Below are positions 18,247 to 35,644 of a stretch of 64,000 nucleotides of DNA, piece after piece. The notes beneath the pieces are model-generated. The model was not told where the DNA came from, searched no databases, and was given only the letters and a program-made list of their open reading frames with translations. Origin of the DNA: Mucilaginibacter pedocola (GTDB lineage: Bacteria; Bacteroidota; Bacteroidia; Sphingobacteriales; Sphingobacteriaceae); the NCBI RefSeq assembly GCF_002013915.1, contig NZ_MBTF01000039.1:248001-312000 (forward strand), given 5' to 3'. The position numbers and the translations under genes are program-made. The first letter of the stretch is position 1. Each line of letters begins with the position of its first letter.

Positions 18247-19584
18247 TTAGTACAAAGTGAATTCTACCCTTCTGTTCTGCTGGCGGCCGGCTGCCGTTTT
18301 ATTGGAAGCAATGGGCTGGGCCTGGCCATAGCCGGTAGCTTCGATCCTTGATGCGTTGGCACCCTGGCCCACCAGGTAAGCTTTCACCGCTTCTGCACGG
18401 TCTTTGGACAAACGCATATTGAGTTCAGCCGAACCGGTATTATCCGTATGGCCGGCCAGTTTCAAACTGAAGTTTTTCTGTACCAGCAAGGCCGCTACTT
18501 TATTTAAAGTGGCAAAAGAACGCCCACGGATCGTTGCTTTGCCCAGGTCAAATTCCAGGTTATGAATGGCTTCATCCACCACTTTTCGGTCTTCATCGGT
18601 CACGATCACTTTTACCTTTTCGGTCACTACCGGGGCGATGCGTTTGATCACGCAGCCGGAACCATCGGCCTGCGTGCTGTCATTCAGTACCGTGCCGGGA
18701 CATTTGTCAAACTTATTGGCTACGCCATCGTTATCTTCATCGGCCATATCCCTCGCGTATTGCTGCTGGTCGGCCAGGCGTTGTTGTTCCGCGGCGGCCA
18801 AACGGCTGCGCAGCGCGGCGCTTTCGGCCGCATTCGCTTCGCGCAAGGCAGCGATCGGGCTGAAGTTCTGCAGTTGGGAAGCTTTCCTTTTACCAAAGGC
18901 GATCTCAATACCGGCATGCGCGTACGAGAACCGGTCGTTCATTGCGCTGGCCACACCGTTAAAATTGCCGGTCTTCATAAAGCCCACAGTATAGCCCAGG
19001 TCGATGTTGACCGCTCGCGAAACGCCCAGCTTGAAACCGGCGCCTACCGGGATGAACCAGTTCCGCTGGTAACCTGTGTTTTGTCCAGACGGCGTATTAT
19101 AGGTTTGGGCATTATAGGACATATAGCCCGCACCCGCGGTCAGGTAAGGTGACAGCAAAGAGCGCTTGTGGTTCAGGCTCATGTTGGCGATGGTGAAGTT
19201 GGCACTCAGGTCACCCGACCATTCGATACGGGTATTAAAATCGCTGGCGTCCTGGGCCGCTGAGGGCGATGCCAAGATATTTGCTTTTTCGCCTTTTACA
19301 TGCCCCATCAGGAAGTTTGCCTGCAGGCCAAAGCCGGGGAGGATCTGTTTTTTGATATAAGCGCCATAGCCCCAATCCAACTGCGTTTTTTTGAAATCGC
19401 CGTTCGTACTGCTGTTAAACGGCGTATAATGGCTTAAGGCACCGGCGTTAAGTCCTAGCGACCAGGTGCGGAAATCTTTTTTTTCGAACAGTGCCGTATC
19501 TGATGCCGTAGTTTGCGCATAGGCGCCTGCCGAGCAGCCCAGCAGGGAACCGGCGATAATGAATTGTTTAAATGTTTTTTTCAT
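18247..19584 (-). CDS. OmpA-family outer-membrane protein
   Basis: 445 residues from ATG 19584; an in-frame start 33 nt upstream would spoil the signal peptide MKKTFKQFIIAGSLLGCSAG. An N-terminal beta barrel (about 30-235) is followed by a coiled segment rich in Ala, Glu and Gln (ESAALRSRLAAAEQQRLADQ), a thrombospondin-3-type calcium motif DEDNDGVANKFDKCPGT, and a C-terminal OmpA peptidoglycan-binding domain with LAGHTDNTGSAELNMRLSKD and GYGQAQPIASNKTAAGRQQN. It anchors the outer membrane to the cell wall. Divergent from the LytTR gene at 19742. Confidence 0.92.
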   Translation of the reverse strand: MKKTFKQFIIAGSLLGCSAGAYAQTTASDTALFEKKDFRTWSLGLNAGALSHYTPFNSSTNGDFKKTQLDWGYGAYIKKQILPGFGLQANFLMGHVKGEKANILASPSAAQDASDFNTRIEWSGDLSANFTIANMSLNHKRSLLSPYLTAGAGYMSYNAQTYNTPSGQNTGYQRNWFIPVGAGFKLGVSRAVNIDLGYTVGFMKTGNFNGVASAMNDRFSYAHAGIEIAFGKRKASQLQNFSPIAALREANAAESAALRSRLAAAEQQRLADQQQYARDMADEDNDGVANKFDKCPGTVLNDSTQADGSGCVIKRIAPVVTEKVKVIVTDEDRKVVDEAIHNLEFDLGKATIRGRSFATLNKVAALLVQKNFSLKLAGHTDNTGSAELNMRLSKDRAEAVKAYLVGQGANASRIEATGYGQAQPIASNKTAAGRQQNRRVEFTLY

Positions 19585-19741
19585 AGTGGTAAAATTTTGT
19601 CGGGGCAAATCAAGCATGATCTGTCATTGCGGCCAAGCGCGTCCGACCAAAACCGCCCGCCATCCGACCAGAACGCCCTTCCATTCGCCCGGGGCCTGCC
19701 AAGAATTTGCGGTTACCGCACGGCTATCGTATTTTAGGGGC

Positions 19742-20458
19742 ATGGAGCGCATTTTAAATTGTCTGGTGATAGATGACGACCGGGAGGTCAATGCCCTGGT
19801 CTGCGAAATGGTCGAGCAGACGGAGTTCCTCAAACTTGCCGGAAATTTCTTTAGTGCAGGCGCGGCAATTCCTACTTTACAGCAAGAAAAGGTTGATCTG
19901 CTGATCCTGGATATCAATTTACCGGGCATCGATGGTGTTACCTTTGCGGGTACGCTGAAACTTAACGGTTCGGGCAATTCGCCGAAAGTCGTCTTGATCA
20001 GCGGCTCGCGTGAATATGCTTTGGATGGTTACAAGGTCGATGCCCTGGATTACCTGGTCAAGCCGTTCGCCTACGAAGATTTCTATCGGGCTGCCTGCAA
20101 AGCGCTCACAATATCAACTGCTAAAGCAGAAACTACGCCGAAAACGGATCATCTATTTCTTAAAGTGGAACATGAACTGATCCGCGTAAATATTCCGGAT
20201 ATCTGTTATGTGGAGAGCGCCAAAGATTACGTGCGCGTAGTCACGGGCGAAAAAGTGACCACCGCTTTATCTACTTTAAAGGCAATGGAAGAGCAACTCG
20301 CCGGCCATGGTTTCCTAAAGGTTCATCGTTCCTTTATCATCAATCCCGACAAGGTCGAATCTATCCAGCACCTCACTGTGAAATTCGGCAAAACGATCAT
20401 CCCGGTCACCGAGCAATACCGGGAGGCGTTCCGCGCCCGATTCGCCGCCTGGCTGTGA
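19742..20458 (+). CDS. LytTR-family response regulator
   Basis: 238 residues from ATG 19742; the frame is open to 19559 but that stretch reads antisense to the OmpA leader. Receiver: CLVIDDDREV, phospho-acceptor Asp in LLILDINLPGIDG, Lys in YLVKPFAYEDF. LytTR domain: LFLKVEHELIRVNIPDICYV, ESAKDYVRV and FLKVHRSFIINPDKVESI. It would bind direct repeats upstream of its targets. Upstream of the coiled-coil protein and a histidine kinase, which may be its partner although that kinase is of the HisKA and not the LytS type. Confidence 0.9.
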   Translation: MERILNCLVIDDDREVNALVCEMVEQTEFLKLAGNFFSAGAAIPTLQQEKVDLLILDINLPGIDGVTFAGTLKLNGSGNSPKVVLISGSREYALDGYKVDALDYLVKPFAYEDFYRAACKALTISTAKAETTPKTDHLFLKVEHELIRVNIPDICYVESAKDYVRVVTGEKVTTALSTLKAMEEQLAGHGFLKVHRSFIINPDKVESIQHLTVKFGKTIIPVTEQYREAFRARFAAWL

Positions 20459-25730: not shown

Positions 25731-28724
25731 ATGAAGTATTCTTTTTTCAATAAGATGCTGTTACGCAGGCCTGTCCAAAGCCCCGCTGCCTATGGCAAGG
25801 GCCTTGCTTTCTTTTTAGAAGACCCGCTGTTTATGGCAGCGGTGCGGCTTGCCACACCGGTCTTTTACGTTAAGCTGGAAAAGCACTTAAGCGAAGGGTC
25901 GGAACTGTCATCCAAAGAAGCCCTGACGTTGCAGAAATATATTAACCGGTATTGCTACCGCCCGACCCCTTTCGGGCTTTTCTCTGCTGTGCAGCTGATC
26001 GAATGGAGGGGTACTTGTTCCGAGAACAAAGATCGTTCCGCACTTATGGCCAATGTCCATACCGCTATGCCGCTCCTTGTCCAACTGGAGGAGCAGCTAA
26101 CCGGGAGCGCGAAGGCAAAATATGAGTGCAACCCCACGCTCTACCGGGTGATGAATGAGTACCGTTTTGTGCGGACCGGGCTGAACGAGGCCGGACAACA
26201 ACGGGAATACCAGCTCCAATCCATCGCATTTACCAGGATCTTAGGGGGCCTGAGCAATTATTGCAGAACACCCCGGCAAAGAACTGACATTACAGCCCAT
26301 ATCGCAGCAGCGGCAGCATGCGAATTATCCGAGGCAGCTGACTATACCGCTTTCCTGATAGACGCTCGATTTTTGGTGGATCACGGGCGGCTCAACATTA
26401 CCGGGAAGGGGCAATCAGCGACGATACTAAGCCTGCCGGAAGGGGGGAGAAACATGGAACAGCTTCAGTCGCTGAGCAAAGGACTGAACATATCTTCAAC
26501 GACCATCGGCCCGGCGGCCATCGATCGCCTCGAGGGCCTGCTTAGCGGCCTTTTGCCCGCTCTGTCCGATACCACGGAGAAATTAAGCATCATCATGAAA
26601 GAAGACAACCGCGGCGATGCGGTCGGGGCATCGGTCCGGAAAAAACTACGTGAGGGCCTGCATGCCCTTAGTTCATTAACGCAAGACCACCGTCCTGTTG
26701 AGTTAAAGCGATTCGTATCTGCCTTCAACAAGCATTTCGAGGGGCAAACATTGCCTTTGCTCCTGGCACTTGACCCGGAGGCCGGCATCGGCTATCAGCT
26801 TCCGGAAATAGAAAGAAACAATCCGCTGCTGGAGACTTTGAACATTCCTTACCTATCTTCCCCGGGCACCAACCAAAACTGGTCGACGACTCATAGCCTG
26901 ATCATGGAGGCCTGGCTTCGGATGGACCCGGGGCAGAACGTTGTACGCATCAATGATGAGCTGCTTGAACGTGCGGGGAAAAACGCCCCTGACAACCCGA
27001 TATTGGGCATGTCGGTCCTCTTCCGCCTCACCGAGGACCAGGTATTGATCGAGAATGCCGGGGGTATCAACGCGCCGGCCCTCATGGGCAGGTTCACGCT
27101 CGCCGATGAAGCGATCGCGGCCGCAGCTCAAGAAATGGCCCGGCAATTAGAAGAGCAGAACCCGGAGGTGATCTTTGCGGAGTTACTCCATTTGGCAGAT
27201 CCGCATACCGATAATATCAACCGTCGGGACCATATTTACAAGTATGAATTACCGATCACCGCCGCTTCCCGTCTTCCCCGTGAACAACAACTCCAACTTT
27301 CTGATCTTTATTTGTCGATCGTGGGGTCACAGATAATTCTCTTTTCGGAAAGGCATCAAAAGGCCGTTATCCCGCGGCTGACCTCTGCCTATAATCACAG
27401 CCTTAACCGCTTACCTTTATTCCGGTTCCTGGCGGACCTTTCCTACCAGTACGCTCGTTCAAGCCTGGCCCTGGATCTTCGGCAGCTCTTTCCGGGGCTC
27501 AGTTCATACCCAAGGGTCGAGTACAAAAATACCATACTCAGTTTGGCCATTTGGGTATTGAACAGCGAACAGATCGACGGTTTGTCCTCGGGGGCTGAGC
27601 GTGGCATAGCAGCCTTCCGGGAATGGAGGGACAGGATAGGGCTTTGCCGTTATTATTCACTTGCAGATGGCGATCAGGAATTAGTGTTCGATGGCGAAAG
27701 TGAAAAGGACGTCCTATTCTTTCAAAGTTGCATCCGCAACCGGAAGGAGGCTATCCTTAAAGAGTTCCCGGAACAGGACGTTGTAAAGCAGTATAATGCT
27801 TACCTCTTGCCGGAAGAGGCATTGGAATTGCCTAAGACCGGCCTGTTCTCGAATGACAAGGGCAAAGAGCGCCGGAAGTTCTTGCCCGGTTCATCCTGGC
27901 TTTATCTAAAAATATATGCCCCAAGGACCGGAGTGAACCGTCTACTGTTACGACTGCGTCCCCTGCTTTATAAAGCCTACGGCGGCCATAAGGTCCGCAA
28001 ATGGTTCTTTATACGTTATGAGGACCATGCACCACATATCCGGCTTCGCTTGCAGGTCGAACCTGATGCGATCAATGATATTTTGCTGGCCTTCAAAAAT
28101 AAACTGGAAAACGGTATCCGGCAACATGTGATCAGGGAATTCCAGATCGATGTGTATAGCCGGGAATTAGAACGCTACAGGGCCGGCGGCATCGAAAATA
28201 CCGAGGCGTTCTTTTTTGCCAGCAGCGAACTGACCTTGAATTACCTCCGGCATTCCAAAAAGGTAGGATCACCGGCCTTACACACTTATGCGCTCTATTC
28301 TACCTATATATTGGTGAGCCACTTCCTCACCGGACAGGATGACCAGATCAGGTTCACGCAGTTGGGTTTCCAACGCTTTCTCCCCGAGTTCGCGAATGTC
28401 CCGATCAAGGTCGGCCTGGACAAAAAATACCGGGAATTAGCGCCGGGCATACTTATGGCTTTTCGAAAAGAAGACCCCGGCTTGTTATGCGGTTCCGCAA
28501 AGTCCGGCCGGTCGTTCGCCTCCAGCCTCCAAACGATACGTGCTTACATGGGACCAAGGCCGGATGAAGAATACCTGTACAGTATCGTCCATATGCACCT
28601 GAACCGGATATTTACCGACGAATCCCGCAAACAGGAAATGATCTGTTACTACTTTATCCATAAATACTTATTGTCGGTCAAAGGCCGGAGCCTGTCGGAC
28701 GCAAAGCAGAACGCTCCGTCCTGA
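25731..28724 (+). CDS. Lantibiotic dehydratase (LanB, full length)
   Basis: 997 residues from ATG 25731 (an in-frame ATG 87 nt upstream overlaps the CGNR remnant and lacks family character). N-terminal glutamylation part (about 1-680): Arg-rich motif YRPTPFGLFSAVQLIE near residue 80 as in NisB. C-terminal elimination part (about 725-990, SpaB_C/thiopeptide type): WLYLKIYAP, KWFFIRYEDHAPHIRLRL, DVYSRELERYRAGG and VHMHLNRIF supply the Arg, Glu and His positions expected for glutamate elimination. It should dehydrate Ser/Thr of a precursor peptide using glutamyl-tRNA. No lanC, lanT or protease is nearby. Its last 47 nt overlap the convergent LytTR gene. Confidence 0.9.
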   Translation: MKYSFFNKMLLRRPVQSPAAYGKGLAFFLEDPLFMAAVRLATPVFYVKLEKHLSEGSELSSKEALTLQKYINRYCYRPTPFGLFSAVQLIEWRGTCSENKDRSALMANVHTAMPLLVQLEEQLTGSAKAKYECNPTLYRVMNEYRFVRTGLNEAGQQREYQLQSIAFTRILGGLSNYCRTPRQRTDITAHIAAAAACELSEAADYTAFLIDARFLVDHGRLNITGKGQSATILSLPEGGRNMEQLQSLSKGLNISSTTIGPAAIDRLEGLLSGLLPALSDTTEKLSIIMKEDNRGDAVGASVRKKLREGLHALSSLTQDHRPVELKRFVSAFNKHFEGQTLPLLLALDPEAGIGYQLPEIERNNPLLETLNIPYLSSPGTNQNWSTTHSLIMEAWLRMDPGQNVVRINDELLERAGKNAPDNPILGMSVLFRLTEDQVLIENAGGINAPALMGRFTLADEAIAAAAQEMARQLEEQNPEVIFAELLHLADPHTDNINRRDHIYKYELPITAASRLPREQQLQLSDLYLSIVGSQIILFSERHQKAVIPRLTSAYNHSLNRLPLFRFLADLSYQYARSSLALDLRQLFPGLSSYPRVEYKNTILSLAIWVLNSEQIDGLSSGAERGIAAFREWRDRIGLCRYYSLADGDQELVFDGESEKDVLFFQSCIRNRKEAILKEFPEQDVVKQYNAYLLPEEALELPKTGLFSNDKGKERRKFLPGSSWLYLKIYAPRTGVNRLLLRLRPLLYKAYGGHKVRKWFFIRYEDHAPHIRLRLQVEPDAINDILLAFKNKLENGIRQHVIREFQIDVYSRELERYRAGGIENTEAFFFASSELTLNYLRHSKKVGSPALHTYALYSTYILVSHFLTGQDDQIRFTQLGFQRFLPEFANVPIKVGLDKKYRELAPGILMAFRKEDPGLLCGSAKSGRSFASSLQTIRAYMGPRPDEEYLYSIVHMHLNRIFTDESRKQEMICYYFIHKYLLSVKGRSLSDAKQNAPS

Positions 28725-29436
28725 CCAGGTGTTCATCCATCATATCCAGAAAACGTTGTTTATAATGGCCGCCCAAAGCCAGCGTATCGCCGTTCTCCAT
28801 CCTGACCTGCCCGCGTTCGATCACTTTTACAAAATTAACGTTGATCAGGAAGGACCGGTGGGTACGGGCGAATAGCGGCTTTGGCAGGTGCTGCTCGATC
28901 TCTTTCATGGTCAGGTAGGTCATATGTTTAGCCTCGGCCGTATGGACCATGATGTAATTGACCGCACCTTCGATGTAGATCACCTCATCGAATTTGACCT
29001 TGACCACCCGCCCTTTGATCTCGCTTTTGATGGTGAAAAAGTCCTTATATATCGGGTAATTGTTCTTGACCGACAGCTTTTTCTTACGTTTGGCATGCTG
29101 GATGCATTTGGCGAAGCGTTCATAAGTGATCGGCTTCAGGAGGTAATCGAACGCTTCTTTTTCATAGGCCTGCAAGGCGTACTCCTGGAATGCGGTCGTA
29201 AAGACCACCGTAGTGTAGAGGTTAACCATTCCGGCAAGCTCCAGCCCGGATAGCAGCCGCATATCCACATCCACAAAAGTGATGTCCGGAGCGTTTGCGC
29301 CGGTCAGCCGGTCCAATGCCACCAAGGGGTCCAGAGCGGTGCCGACCAATTCCAGTCCGGGTGTGCGTTCGATATATTCGGAGAGCAAGGTAATGGCCCC
29401 CGGTTCGTCATCGACGATATAACAAGTGATATTCAT
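28678..29436 (-). CDS. LytTR-family response regulator
   Basis: 252 residues. Receiver: CYIVDDEPGAI, phospho-acceptor Asp in ITFVDVDMRLLSG, Lys in YLLKPITYERF. LytTR domain (about 140-240): FFTIKSEIKGRVVKVKFDEV, YIEGAVNYIMV and ARTHRSFLINVNFVKVIERG. The coding sequence overlaps its kinase by 4 nt (ATGA) and overlaps the lanB 3' end by 47 nt in convergent orientation. Together with the kinase it forms a complete two-component system lying between lanB and the peptide gene, as expected for a RiPP regulator. Confidence 0.92.
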   Translation of the reverse strand: MNITCYIVDDEPGAITLLSEYIERTPGLELVGTALDPLVALDRLTGANAPDITFVDVDMRLLSGLELAGMVNLYTTVVFTTAFQEYALQAYEKEAFDYLLKPITYERFAKCIQHAKRKKKLSVKNNYPIYKDFFTIKSEIKGRVVKVKFDEVIYIEGAVNYIMVHTAEAKHMTYLTMKEIEQHLPKPLFARTHRSFLINVNFVKVIERGQVRMENGDTLALGGHYKQRFLDMMDEHLVRTERSALRPTGSGL

Positions 29437-30515
29437 AGTTCGATAATTAGATGTGTCGTAAATATCTCTTCGTCTTCATTTACTGCCAGGCGGTAACGCC
29501 CCTGGTAAAAATTAGCGAGCCGTTTCCTGATATTGTTCAGGCCGAGGCCGCTCGCCGGATATAGTTTCGTCAACTTCTTCTTATTTCTGGTCTCAAATTC
29601 AATATGCCCGTCCTGAACTTCTATACGTACCAATGCCGGGCTACGGGCATCCCCCAGGTCACCGTGCTTCATCATGTTCTCGACCAGGGTGATCAGGACC
29701 AGTGGGATGATCTGTAGCTGCGCCATTTTTCCCCGTTTCCTGAATTTCAGATGAAAATGATCGGGGAAACGCATCCTGCAAAGTTCGATCAGGTTCTGCA
29801 CTTGCTCGAGTTCGCGCCTAAGGGTTACGGTCCGAGTATCGTCGGTACTTGTCAAAGAATAACGCATCAGGTCCGACAACAAAGAAACGCTTTTACCTGC
29901 CTCTTCCGAACCTTTATATACTTTGGTATAGATAAAGTTCAGCGAATTGAACAGCAGGTGGGGGCTGATCTGGTTCTGCAAATAGGCGTTCTCCACCGAA
30001 ATATACTTATTTTCCAGTTCCAGTTTACTTGCTTCCGTCTTTAATTGTTCGGTCTCAATGCGGTGGTTTCGTTCTTTATACCTAAGCATATATCGCATAG
30101 ACCAGTAAGCGATACTGAACCCGATAAAGTAAATTCCACGCCAAAGATTCGCCAAAAGGAACTGGCGGTTTTGGATGAGCACACCGGATATAGAGGCATT
30201 TGGCCTCATACTCAGATAATCCAATAAAAGTTTCAGGAAGAAATAGGCCACAAGTTCTACAAAGGTCAGTCCTAAGGCGAAAATATATGGCCTGTTCGTC
30301 CTAAAAAATGCAAAGTCCAATACCAGGTGCGCTTGAGCATAGAATAGCGCAATATTCAACGCATAATAAACGGCAAAGTGGCCTACACTTGCATTCACAC
30401 CGACAGTGAAGTAAATATAGGCGACCTCGTATCCAATGAAGATCAGCCAAAGGGAAACATGAAGAAGAACCCTAGCTTTCGTAGTCATCCGATTTTCACT
30501 TTTTGCTTTCTGCAT
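29433..30515 (-). CDS. LytS/YehU-type sensor histidine kinase
   Basis: 360 residues with about four hydrophobic membrane helices in the first 140 residues. The His_kinase box reads LQNQISPHLLFNSLNFIYTK; the family normally has NPHFLFN, so SPHLLFN is a mild variant with the acceptor His kept. The HATPase is short: LVENMMKHG for the N box and GLGLNNIRKRL for the G box; a canonical G1 DNG was not clear in FETRNKKKLTKLYPASG, which replaces it. Promoter region faces the peptide gene 75 nt away. Confidence 0.88.
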   Translation of the reverse strand: MQKAKSENRMTTKARVLLHVSLWLIFIGYEVAYIYFTVGVNASVGHFAVYYALNIALFYAQAHLVLDFAFFRTNRPYIFALGLTFVELVAYFFLKLLLDYLSMRPNASISGVLIQNRQFLLANLWRGIYFIGFSIAYWSMRYMLRYKERNHRIETEQLKTEASKLELENKYISVENAYLQNQISPHLLFNSLNFIYTKVYKGSEEAGKSVSLLSDLMRYSLTSTDDTRTVTLRRELEQVQNLIELCRMRFPDHFHLKFRKRGKMAQLQIIPLVLITLVENMMKHGDLGDARSPALVRIEVQDGHIEFETRNKKKLTKLYPASGLGLNNIRKRLANFYQGRYRLAVNEDEEIFTTHLIIEL

Positions 30516-30561
30516 AGACCAAAGGCCACTTCGTGTAATAAAGTTCAGGTGGCTTTTAAGC

Positions 30562-30577
30562 CCAAATAGTTTTGGGT
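30562..30577 (+). promoter_or_regulatory. Bacteroidetes -7 element within an inverted repeat
   Basis: TAGTTTTG at 30568-30575 fits the TAnnTTTG -7 consensus of Bacteroidota. It is embedded in the perfect inverted repeat CCCAAA-TAGT-TTTGGG (30562-30577), so a bound dimer would cover the promoter. The peptide start is 15 nt downstream. No good -33 TTG is visible at the usual distance, which suggests activator dependence. Confidence 0.45.
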
Positions 30578-30590
30578 AAACACTAAAGCC

Positions 30591-30773
30591 ATGAAAAGTA
30601 CAAAACCAAAAAAACTAAACAGAACGGTCAATACCATATGTGACTTCAAAGGACACACGGTGTCGGTTAACCCGACCGCCGATACGAGCCTGGGTACTGA
30701 CCCAACCAATACCACGATGACCATTATTACAACAGTTAATACGCACCTCGACCATAAAAGGTTGGTCATTTAG
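30591..30773 (+). CDS. Putative RiPP precursor peptide, Thr-rich
   Basis: 60 residues. A Lys-rich start MKSTKPKKLNRTVNTICDF is followed by a part from about residue 23 with 11 Thr and 2 Ser in 29 residues (DTSLGTDPTNTTMTIITTVN), ending in HLDHKRLVI. The KKLN...V.TI pattern recalls Bacteroidetes class I lanthipeptide leaders; there is only one Cys (residue 17). Its place next to a LanB gene, a LytTR pair and its own -7 element supports a precursor role. No double-Gly or other clear cleavage site. It may be a substrate giving several dehydrobutyrines. Not confirmed. Confidence 0.55.
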   Translation: MKSTKPKKLNRTVNTICDFKGHTVSVNPTADTSLGTDPTNTTMTIITTVNTHLDHKRLVI

Positions 30774-30856: not shown

Positions 30857-31996
30857 TTGCTTAGAACGGAGATCAATGCACTGGAAGAACATATCGATGC
30901 TATTCTGAATTCGGACAGGATAGACGATGCCTTGGCCTACCCGGAACTTTTGGCCGGCGTAAAGGCGATGTGTTCCTCCCTGAAAGCGCTTTGGATACGT
31001 GAATTATTAAGTAATTTACGTGAACTGGTGCTGAAACGATACGTTCAATATCATCAGGCAGTTATCATCCGGCTTTCCGATAAGGCCGGCCTGGCACTGA
31101 CCAGATCGGCCGCCTCAGATCTGGACGGGCATGCTTATCAAAACCTGTATACGGGGATCGCAGCTGAACTGGAGGATATCATTACTTTTCTCCGATATCG
31201 TGCCTACCTGTACTTTGATATCGACCATCCTGCTACAAGCTATTATATCGGCTTGGTTCGAAAGAGAGTGAACGAGATCGCCCAGGATATCAGGAACTGC
31301 GCTGATACGCCGATCGACCAAATGCTAATCGGCAGCGCAGTGTTATCGGTGGACGAGCTGCTCTCCAAGCCATCATCCGGTACGCTTTCCTATCGCAGGG
31401 CAGATCAATGCCAAAGGGTCATCGAAATGACCTCCCAACTCGTAATGCCGGAACTGGGAACAGATACGAACGCACTTTTCCGTGCCTTGTTCCGGCAGAA
31501 CCTTAACTCTCTGCATTTTTACAACTGGTACCGCACGTCGATACTCAGTTCGCTTGCGGCCGCAGGTGGCCAGAAAGAGAAGGGCTCCATACTCCGGCAG
31601 CAGATCGATATGCTTTCAGCTGTGTATGTTGATCCCGACAAAGCCCTGTATCCTGAATTGGCCCCGATCGATAAGATGGCCCTTAGCTGGCTTAGTGAAC
31701 AAGCCAACGCGCCTGCTCAACCCGCGCCAACGGCCTGGCAATTACCGCTGAATTTATCGGTACCACAATTCGCTATGTTCATCCGGATCTTCTATAAGGC
31801 CGGCTGTTTCCCGATCGAGAATGTAGCGATGATCACCTGTTTCTTTACGGCGCACTTCAGGACCAAAAAACGATCCCATATCTCTCAAAAAAGCTTTAAC
31901 CATGCTTTCTACGACAACGACCAGTCGGCCGCAGCGATCGTTCGTGACCTGTTACAAAAAATGCTTAATTACCTCAATAAAACCTATTTCCCATGA
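30857..31996 (+). CDS. Conjugative-element protein of unknown function
   Basis: 379 residues if TTG 30857 is the start; no in-frame ATG occurs before about codon 38. Mostly helical. The C-terminal 90 residues (LSVPQFAMFIRIFYKAGCFP, then TKKRSHISQKSFNHAFYDND and a helix to NKTYF) follow a pattern I associate with proteins next to rteC in Bacteroidetes elements, which seem to be DNA-binding or regulatory. It precedes the RteC gene by 96 nt on the same strand. Function unknown. Confidence 0.6.
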   Translation: MLRTEINALEEHIDAILNSDRIDDALAYPELLAGVKAMCSSLKALWIRELLSNLRELVLKRYVQYHQAVIIRLSDKAGLALTRSAASDLDGHAYQNLYTGIAAELEDIITFLRYRAYLYFDIDHPATSYYIGLVRKRVNEIAQDIRNCADTPIDQMLIGSAVLSVDELLSKPSSGTLSYRRADQCQRVIEMTSQLVMPELGTDTNALFRALFRQNLNSLHFYNWYRTSILSSLAAAGGQKEKGSILRQQIDMLSAVYVDPDKALYPELAPIDKMALSWLSEQANAPAQPAPTAWQLPLNLSVPQFAMFIRIFYKAGCFPIENVAMITCFFTAHFRTKKRSHISQKSFNHAFYDNDQSAAAIVRDLLQKMLNYLNKTYFP

Positions 31997-32092: not shown

Positions 32093-32926
32093 ATGATAAC
32101 CAAAATTAGTGATCGCCTTTACGCGGACCTTACCAGGGACCTGAATGCGCTGGTGCTCGAAGAAGAGCAAGCGATCAAAAGAATGGAACGCTCCATCCAT
32201 GTATGCCTAAAATATCTACGAAAACTAAAAGAGCATTGTAAGCTGAACGGCCCCGGCACACCGCAGGAAGAGATCGTCTTCTTCAAACAGATAAAGCCCA
32301 AGTTCAAGGCCCAGCTGATCTTTCACCAATCCCTCCTGAACCTGGAGATCCGCAAACCGGTAGGCGAAGGCCAGCTGGTGTGTGATTACCTCCATAACGA
32401 GATCAGGATCATCCAGCATTTCTTCGAAAGCAACCTGTCTTTTTATCAATATGTCCGGACAGAGGCGACCTACCTGGACGAGCAGTATTTTGTCCGCGGC
32501 ACCTACGATGTCCATCTCGACCCCGACCAGTGCATGATCGATTTCGACCCGGCCTTCAGTACGACCCATGACCATAAGCTTGCCCAGGTCTTGGCCAATG
32601 AGCTGTTGCAGGAGCACCTGGAGCAGTCCATCCAAAGGATCAATCAAAGGGAAACGATCACCCAACTGGACGCGGAATTCTACGATTTCGACTGGAAGCA
32701 GACCAAATGTGCGCTGATCGAGCTGATCTACAGCTGGCATGCTACCGAAGCGTTCGGCAAGAAGAACCTAAAAAGCATCGCCAAGTTCATTGAACGCTCA
32801 TTCAACGTATCATTGGGTAATTTCTACGACACCTATGAGTGGCTCTGCGGCAGGTCAAGCCCCACGGTCTACATTGATGAGATGAAAGAGGCATTCTTGC
32901 TCCGGATGCAAAAGAAACTCAAATAG
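32093..32926 (+). CDS. rteC: RteC-domain protein
   Basis: 277 residues. Whole-length match to RteC: N-terminal helices, FFKQIKPKFKAQLIFHQSLL, YLHNEIRIIQHFFESNLSFY, YLDEQYFVRG, and the C-terminal ALIELIYSWHATEAF with SFNVSLGNFYDTYEWL. In Bacteroides CTnDOT, RteC stimulates excision of the element after tetracycline sensing by RteA/RteB. Here neither RteA/B nor a tet gene is adjacent, so the trigger is unknown. Its presence supports an integrative element around this part of the window. Confidence 0.88.
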   Translation: MITKISDRLYADLTRDLNALVLEEEQAIKRMERSIHVCLKYLRKLKEHCKLNGPGTPQEEIVFFKQIKPKFKAQLIFHQSLLNLEIRKPVGEGQLVCDYLHNEIRIIQHFFESNLSFYQYVRTEATYLDEQYFVRGTYDVHLDPDQCMIDFDPAFSTTHDHKLAQVLANELLQEHLEQSIQRINQRETITQLDAEFYDFDWKQTKCALIELIYSWHATEAFGKKNLKSIAKFIERSFNVSLGNFYDTYEWLCGRSSPTVYIDEMKEAFLLRMQKKLK

Positions 32927-33837: not shown

Positions 33838-34854
33838 ATGAACACTTTTACATTAATGAACAAAAAGGGACATCATATCTTATATCATGCAACCGAAAAG
33901 CTGAGGCTTTTAACGGGCCTTGATATCAATATTCTACCCACTCAAGTTAACGGATATGATAATAGAGCAGATGCCGAAATAGAGATACAAAGCGGCGATG
34001 CGCGGGTACACTTTATTACAAATATCAAGAATGAAGTGCGGAACTTTCTACCACAAAAATACCTGGCAGGAACTGAGCATTTGTTGGTCGCGCAGTACAT
34101 CCCAAAGCCACTCAAACAAGAATTAAAGAACCTCCAATATAATTATTTGGATGCCGCTGGCAATTGTTTTATTCGTGCCGGCGGGCTATTTATCTACATC
34201 AACGATCAACCGGTAACGGAGATACGGCTTCCGGCAGAAGGAAAACTCTGGAAGGCCGCCGGGTTAAAATTCATATTTGCGATACTTTTAAAACAGGAGT
34301 TGTTGAATTTGCCTTATCGGAAAATAGCAGAAGATGCAGGCATCGCGTTGGGAAATGTCGGCGCCCTATTGGAGGAATTAAAAAAAGAGGGGTATTTATT
34401 GGGTGGCCACAATGGGCAATTCCTCGCTTATAAGGAGAAACTGATCGACCGGTGGGCCGAAGCATTCAAGAATACCCTACGCCCCAAATTAATGCTGGGC
34501 ACTTTCAGATATATCAAAAAAGATCTGAACTACAATTGGGAAGAACACGATGCAGCAGGGATCAAATGGGGCGGTGAGAACGCGGGGGCCATATTGACGA
34601 ATTATTTGCGGCCTGAAAAATTCACGATATATACCCTGGCACCCAAAGCCGCACTGATGAAAAAAATGCAACTTGTACCCGATCCCAATGGAAATGTGGA
34701 GTTACTGGAACAATTCTGGAAAGATGATGAAGCTATGAACATGGAGCATAGGAACACCGTACCGCCTATTTTGGCCTATGCTGACCTCATCACAAACTTC
34801 GACAGCCGCAACCGGGAGACCGCAGAACGCATAAAACAAAAATATATTGACTGA
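33838..34854 (+). CDS. AbiEi-like antitoxin of a type IV toxin-antitoxin pair
   Basis: 338 residues. The middle has a winged-helix segment, LLNLPYRKIAEDAGIALGNV and GALLEELKKEGYLLG, preceded by LKFIFAILLKQE, as in AbiEi-type transcriptional antitoxins; the N-terminal part resembles a restriction-endonuclease-like fold but without clear catalytic residues. Its stop overlaps the start of the nucleotidyltransferase gene. AbiE-type antitoxins repress the operon and counteract the toxin in trans. Family call rests on architecture and partner. Confidence 0.75.
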   Translation: MNTFTLMNKKGHHILYHATEKLRLLTGLDINILPTQVNGYDNRADAEIEIQSGDARVHFITNIKNEVRNFLPQKYLAGTEHLLVAQYIPKPLKQELKNLQYNYLDAAGNCFIRAGGLFIYINDQPVTEIRLPAEGKLWKAAGLKFIFAILLKQELLNLPYRKIAEDAGIALGNVGALLEELKKEGYLLGGHNGQFLAYKEKLIDRWAEAFKNTLRPKLMLGTFRYIKKDLNYNWEEHDAAGIKWGGENAGAILTNYLRPEKFTIYTLAPKAALMKKMQLVPDPNGNVELLEQFWKDDEAMNMEHRNTVPPILAYADLITNFDSRNRETAERIKQKYID

Positions 34855-35644
34855 GCCCATCTTACACCCGAGTATCGCTAAGATGCTAAAAGCTATGGAA
34901 GCCGTTTTTACGGACTTTGGAATAGATTATTATGTGGTCGGGGCAGTTGCCCGCGATATCCATTTATCAGCCGAGGCGGACGCAATAGCGCTACGCAAAA
35001 CAAATGACGTAGACCTCGCCATCCTGATCAGTGATGAGGGGCAATTTAACAAATTAAAAGCCGGTCTGGTCGCTACCGGGCAGTTCACCGCGCATGAGAC
35101 CGAAGCGGTGAAGTTGTATTATCACGAAGCGATAGAGGTCGATCTGTTACCATTTGGAGCGATCGAAGGACCAGATAGGAATGTCAAACTCACTGACCCT
35201 GCCTTCGTCCTGAACATGCCAGGTCTTTTAGAGATCTATCCCTTCGCTAGTGCTATCCAGATAAATGAGGATATGGCCATTAAGGTCTGTACAATGGAAG
35301 GGATCATCCTGCTAAAATTGATATCCAACAATGACAGGCCGGAAAGAACAAAAGACATCAGCGACATCGAGCATATCATCAGAGTCTATTTCGACCTCTA
35401 TTCCGGCGACATCTATGAGGAACATTTTGACACAATGGAAATGTACGCGACCGATCAGCATGATTATCTTCAACTCGTATGTGCCAGGGTCATCGGAAGA
35501 AAAATAGCAGCGTTATTATTGTATTCCGAAACCTTACGCGAGAGGATAAACACGATCCTGGCCGAAAGGAAGACCACCTGGTGGCAAGCCATGCTTGATG
35601 GGTTAAATGATAAAACTTCTGTGGATCAGGAACACAAAGCATAG
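34847..35644 (+). CDS. AbiEii-like nucleotidyltransferase toxin
   Basis: 265 residues from TTG 34847, which overlaps the antitoxin stop by 8 nt. The nucleotidyltransferase core reads YYVVGAVARDIHL in place of the usual GSxxR segment, and TNDVDLAILI holds two Asp of the catalytic triad; the third may lie in AIEVDLLPFGAIEG. A C-terminal helical part follows. AbiEii toxins use nucleotidyl transfer to RNA (tRNA in some members) and cause growth arrest, protecting against phage. It may stabilise the element here. Confidence 0.78.
   Translation: MTEPILHPSIAKMLKAMEAVFTDFGIDYYVVGAVARDIHLSAEADAIALRKTNDVDLAILISDEGQFNKLKAGLVATGQFTAHETEAVKLYYHEAIEVDLLPFGAIEGPDRNVKLTDPAFVLNMPGLLEIYPFASAIQINEDMAIKVCTMEGIILLKLISNNDRPERTKDISDIEHIIRVYFDLYSGDIYEEHFDTMEMYATDQHDYLQLVCARVIGRKIAALLLYSETLRERINTILAERKTTWWQAMLDGLNDKTSVDQEHKA

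Follow-up and report, generated by a model that had tools for sequence, protein, structure and literature searches.

The locus described here raises the question of what a complete lanthipeptide dehydratase might do where no cyclase accompanies it. It lies in a stretch of 64,000 nucleotides from Mucilaginibacter pedocola (contig NZ_MBTF01000039.1, positions 248,001 to 312,000; hereafter the window), in which a LanB enzyme, a LytTR/LytS-type two-component system, a small Thr-rich peptide gene, a gene that we call c3 and an RteC homologue stand side by side. Our answer, to which we give a probability of roughly 0.45, is that these genes form a signaling or regulatory module of a CTnDOT-like element, of the type that makes ribosomally synthesized and post-translationally modified peptides (RiPPs). 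LanB would make a dehydrobutyrine-rich peptide without lanthionines that signals through the LytTR system, raising peptide-c3-rteC expression and, via RteC, transfer. An earlier note on this DNA had reported the LanB, the LytTR/kinase pair and the peptide, all of which are where it placed them, and had called the LanB complete, as its PF04738 and PF14028 domains bear out. Its description of a minimal locus was wrong, since the unit also comprises c3, RteC and an upstream element of its own, and it sits on a conjugative element. The features, in window positions, are as follows.

25731..28724, plus strand: LanB, predicted full-length Glu-tRNA-dependent Ser/Thr dehydratase (997 aa; PF04738 and PF14028 domains)
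28678..29436, minus strand: LytTR response regulator (Response_reg and LytTR domains)
29433..30515, minus strand: LytS-type sensor kinase, His_kinase PF06580 (H/N/G boxes, hydrophobic N-terminal segments); its true start is probably Met11, at about 30485
30509..30548, plus strand: 40-bp upstream element, putative response regulator operator, TCTGCATAGACCAAAGGCCACTTCGTGTAATAAAGTTCAG (conservation, near-fixed distance to the peptide ATG)
30567..30574, plus strand: TAGTTTTG, match to the -7 promoter box TAnnTTTG (sequence; kept in most aligned upstream regions)
30591..30773, plus strand: precursor-like peptide, with a K-rich leader containing KKLNRTVNTICDF and a Thr-rich core containing DPTNTTMTIITT (alignment, dN/dS, profile)
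30857..31996, plus strand: c3, predicted all-helical protein with a TTG start (alignment, AlphaFold2 (AF2) model, LanB-linked homologues)
32093..32926, plus strand: RteC homologue (PF09357, 1.6e-62)

The response regulator and kinase genes thus follow LanB on the minus strand, and the peptide gene diverges from the kinase gene.

Conservation of the unit and its peptide

A comparison of 20-kb neighborhoods of LanB homologues from further genomes of the genus shows the order LanB > response regulator/kinase < peptide > c3 > RteC > tra at about 20 Mucilaginibacter loci, most of which are conjugative elements. Diverged loci whose LanBs are 30-56% identical keep it as well, with RteC and tra as the optional part. 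The synteny for which the earlier note had proposed searching relatives is therefore strongly conserved. Across 100 genomes, each of the 25 strong c3 matches (E < 1e-65) has a LanB no more than about 6 kb away, and every RteC homologue of at least 70% identity (12/12) lies downstream of c3 and LanB. Pairwise LanB distances track those of the response regulator, kinase, peptide, c3 and RteC (r 0.77-0.87; a correlation as high arose in 0 of 2000 permutations) but not those of TraG (r 0.17, n=7) or DUF4133 (r 0.23, n=10), for which the numbers are small. Since LanB distances track RteC but not the transfer genes, the cassette moves as a unit that includes RteC and recombines against the transfer genes. 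There is good support for the proposal that these genes act together.

The 60-aa peptide contains 14 Thr, 3 Ser and a single Cys at position 17; residues 23-51 hold 11 Thr and 2 Ser, exactly as first counted. The gap between kinase and c3 encodes such a peptide in all 18 collected loci, with a length of 46-63 aa, a Lys-rich N-terminus and a Thr-rich half that carries a D(P/T)T motif, and the core motif of the family is DPTNTTxTxxTT. For the two closest peptide pairs the ratio of nonsynonymous to synonymous substitutions (dN/dS) is 0.10-0.17 (0.08/0.77 and 0.11/0.63), and the differences between close pairs concentrate at third codon positions. Homologues of the peptide thus exist, as the earlier note had asked, and the frame is conserved and under purifying selection. 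In-frame conservation and dN/dS rule out a chance open reading frame (ORF). An antisense ORF at 30545-30769 was set aside as a gene because the conserved signal sits in the plus-strand frame.

The peptide has no database family and its ORF is small, which might suggest that it is not a gene and that its neighbors are coincidental. Frame conservation, dN/dS, synteny and the unique upstream element contradict this explanation, which we find scarcely credible. A peptide profile matches one peptide next to every LanB of the genome, three in all. Of 300 genomes from the order, 68 gave matches to the profile, other genera included; the weaker of these matches are putative. Because each of the three LanBs has its own family peptide, no separate lanC/lanA set that would pair with this LanB was found in the genome. 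The same genome carries two more LanB-response regulator-kinase-peptide-c3 units, L055 (G000:C1:571431-578533) and L056 (G000:C10:4348-10376), each with a different peptide; RteC and tra genes are present at one of them and absent from the other.

A full-length LanB without a cyclase

Both the glutamylation and the elimination domain of LanB are complete, with PF04738 (Lant_dehydr_N) spanning residues 30-659 (1.4e-78) and PF14028 (Lant_dehydr_C) residues 723-980 (2.1e-52). The enzyme keeps equivalents of the NisB glutamylation-site residues R83, R87 and R464; the equivalent of D299 could not be aligned reliably. The elimination residues R784, R786, R826 and H961 (NisB numbering) are conserved in 24 of 24 LanBs aligned, and from these sites we infer that LanB dehydrates the peptide. 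It could instead merely glutamylate its substrate or add another amino acid, as PEARLs do: LanC-less LanB relatives with Cys-free precursors turned out to be PEARLs (PMC11002830), and the position of NisB D121 is Ala in this LanB. PEARLs, however, are without an elimination domain, whereas this LanB is full length with its elimination residues intact, and we consider a PEARL-like activity improbable.

No LanC-like gene is present within the 64-kb window, in agreement with the absence of LanC noted at the locus before. Genome-wide, only two LANC_like matches pass the Pfam cut-off: one belongs to a class III LanKC-like protein encoded on a different contig, and the other is a weak, partial N-terminal match. 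Several module-carrying genomes, including the complete single-contig genome G011, have no LANC_like match at E <= 1e-5. Likewise, no Cys follows residue 20 in 17 of 18 peptides, while the remaining one ends in Cys. With neither LanC nor a core Cys, no lanthionines are expected. An ordinary class I lanthipeptide whose LanC acts in trans could draw on the two LanC-like proteins elsewhere in the genome and on the one peptide that ends in Cys; given the 17 peptides without a core Cys and the module genomes without a LANC_like gene, we regard it as very improbable. The class III lanthipeptide synthetase-like protein (L057:7648-10266; RamC_N, Pkinase and LANC_like domains) adjoins SusC/SusD genes in the window genome, and MauE-like genes occur at L057 and at L055.

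In a tree of LanBs, the peptide/c3-linked set forms one 33-row group without LanC, with a support of 92 that falls below the 95 mark; elsewhere in the tree, LanC linkage and LytTR linkage switch several times. In the wider LanB search, LanC-linked LanBs pair with Cys-rich precursors bearing LNKETIAxL leaders. LanBs with LytTR/kinase genes and no LanC were also found in Dyadobacter, Chryseobacterium and Geothrix, and those of Chryseobacterium and Dyadobacter/Cytophagaceae are accompanied by conserved Ser/Thr peptides with 0-1 Cys. That LanB-made, lanthionine-free, dehydrobutyrine-rich pheromones control transfer of Bacteroidota conjugative elements via LytTR and RteC, and that the LanC-less LanB units with LytTR and kinase in other Bacteroidota and in Acidobacteriota form a wider signal family, is a generalization that we put forward tentatively.

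Several observations accompany these loci. In Geothrix (Acidobacteriota), LanB stands beside LytTR/kinase genes without LanC at L153, L162, L166, L168, L178 and L181, and no precursor peptide was recognized at the Geothrix loci. At L133, L135, L137-L139, L141, L143-L145, L148, L154, L158 and L163, two neighboring ORFs encode the glutamylation and elimination parts of the Chryseobacterium LanB separately, and no LanC was detected in the vicinity. Loci of the Dyadobacter type and of Chryseobacterium also encode conserved proteins of ~120 aa close to LanB or to the Ser/Thr peptide (L161:8579-8941, L171:8548-8913, L172:8388-8753 and L164:8927-9295), and by eye those of the Dyadobacter type resemble degenerate receiver domains.

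The two-component system, its candidate operator, c3 and RteC

The response regulator carries the phospho-acceptor motif FVDVDM together with YLLKP, and the kinase has intact H, N and G boxes (ISPHLLFN, LVENMMKH and GLGLNN) behind a hydrophobic N-terminus with membrane-spanning segments. Upstream of the peptide, the core GTAAYAAA of the 40-bp element lies 57-59 bp from the ATG in 16 of 18 loci; in the other two, for which a longer start is assumed, the distance is 68 bp. A TAnnTTTG-like box, which we take to be the Bacteroidota -7 promoter consensus, follows the element in most loci. In leave-one-out scoring of the 12 loci with a full element, each gave one strong match (27-51, compared with <=5.8 elsewhere), always upstream of the peptide; none was found before lanB or tra genes in the scored loci. 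The element contains AAAGTTCAG, one match to what is presumably the LytTR half-site consensus, and is a putative response regulator operator. Since peptide, c3 and rteC point in the same direction with short gaps between them, they likely form a single operon under this element. Intrinsic terminator predictions were no more frequent than in shuffled sequence. A second LytTR response regulator gene (19559-20458) lies upstream of several PAS/histidine kinase genes.

The protein c3 has no Pfam, NCBIfam or PDB sequence match. Its AF2 model is all-helical (pLDDT 87) and gave no confident structural match: the lowest E from Foldseek was 0.85, and VIA-align reached a Z of 10 at most, against helical bundles. 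The 24% hhalign probability between the c3 C-terminus and RteC, over 37 C-terminal columns, is only a hint that c3 could be an RteC paralogue. Together with RteC, the element in the window carries TraG, TraJ, TraM and DUF4133 homologues, and by this gene content the locus is on a CTnDOT-type conjugative element. An AbiEi_2-type regulator and AbiEii-like nucleotidyltransferase pair (33838-35644; type IV toxin-antitoxin-like) lies between RteC and the tra genes.

A possible peptide signal and its counterparts

The rteC gene of CTnDOT is switched on by the two-component pair RteA/RteB, and its product in turn governs excision and transfer (PMC1976400). In the circuit that we propose, LanB would bind the K-rich leader of the peptide and, with Glu-tRNA, dehydrate several Thr of its C-terminal half to dehydrobutyrine. 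The membrane kinase would then sense the modified peptide, or a fragment of it that host functions would release and export, and the phosphorylated LytTR regulator would act at the conserved element upstream of peptide-c3-rteC. Activation would raise both peptide output, as positive feedback, and RteC, which would drive excision and transfer as in CTnDOT, so that the element would sense its own product, and perhaps also the density of carriers, ahead of transfer. A dehydrated peptide serving as cue or co-regulator of the LytTR/LytS-type pair seems to us the simplest account of the gene set.

Some observations weigh against this circuit. Besides the Ala at the D121 position of LanB, the peptide leader matches LanC-linked LanA leaders weakly (hhalign E 0.067), the upstream element has no clear 21-bp direct repeat of LytTR half-sites, and no conserved exporter or leader protease was recognized in the unit. 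RteC homologues of 25-48% identity are mostly unlinked to the module, so RteC elements as a whole do not depend on it. Furthermore, some copies of the module lack RteC and tra genes and often have SusC-type genes as neighbors, such that transfer control cannot be the module's only role and the core unit is LanB-response regulator-kinase-peptide-c3. SusC/SusD pairs (TonB-dependent receptor and lipoprotein) occur near LanB in L052, L053, L055, L056, L061 and L062.

The copies without RteC also suit the main rival explanation, in which the peptide is a cargo antimicrobial or competition peptide, rich in dehydrobutyrine, that inhibits neighbors; the LytTR system would regulate it as NisRK does, c3 might give immunity, and the tie to RteC would be positional only. 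LanB enzymes usually make bacteriocins, and regulators of lanthipeptide clusters commonly sense the product. We nevertheless judge this explanation unlikely, since no conserved ABC exporter or immunity gene was recognized in the unit, each of the 12 close RteC homologues is linked to the module and inherited together with it, and the core motif is very uniform for an arms-race peptide.

The dehydrated peptide could also remain inside the cell as a regulator that binds, for example, c3 or the kinase, with its dehydrobutyrines perhaps reacting with a His, Lys or Cys of the partner. Such a role would fit a unit in which no dedicated exporter or protease was recognized and in which peptide and c3 are adjacent and co-inherited. 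In addition, the Thr/Ser-His pair present in 14 of 18 peptides recalls the His-dehydrobutyrine cross-link that noursin contains (PMC11002830). However, the membrane-embedded N-terminus of the kinase suits an outside or membrane cue, and structure searches identified no binding fold for c3; we hold this possibility to be decidedly unlikely.

In the openly accessible literature we found no paper linking LanB to LytTR or RteC in Bacteroidota, although subscription papers were outside our reach and priority is not certain. Lanthipeptide genome mining anchored on LanC (PMC7268733) would miss these loci, and the LanC-less, Cys-free loci of which we found descriptions use short or truncated LanBs (PMC11002830). 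If the proposed signaling circuit is correct, a ring-free type of RiPP would be defined by LanB alone, and Gram-negative bacteria would have a dehydrated peptide as a signal for the timing of horizontal gene transfer. Peptide, enzyme, sensor and upstream element are all small and clearly delimited, which makes the idea directly testable in laboratory strains.

Among known systems, class I lanthipeptide loci (nisin NisABC; the pinensins of Bacteroidota) share with this locus a two-domain LanB, a short leader-core peptide and two-component regulation (NisRK), but the locus is without LanC, core Cys, LanT and LanP, its regulatory pair is of the LytTR/PF06580 type, and c3 and RteC are added. PEARL/pearlin and pyritide loci likewise combine a LanB-superfamily enzyme and a Cys-free peptide with no cyclase; their LanBs are short or split, whereas the elimination site is conserved in the LanB described here, which is full length. 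The predicted linear, dehydrobutyrine-rich product is shared with linaridins and goadsporin-type peptides, both linear dehydroamino-acid peptides; linaridins use different dehydratases, and goadsporin has azoles and a split LanB. Like RteA-RteB-RteC of CTnDOT, the locus has a two-component system next to rteC and belongs to a conjugative element of Bacteroidota that encodes TraG/J/M homologues, although a LytTR/PF06580 pair replaces RteA/RteB, the peptide, LanB and c3 are added, and no tetracycline gene was seen beside the locus. Finally, Agr-type quorum sensing also sets a peptide that is modified, as the one here is predicted to be, beside a membrane kinase and a LytTR regulator; here, however, the modification enzyme is LanB rather than AgrB, the kinase is of the PF06580 type and the bacteria are Gram-negative.

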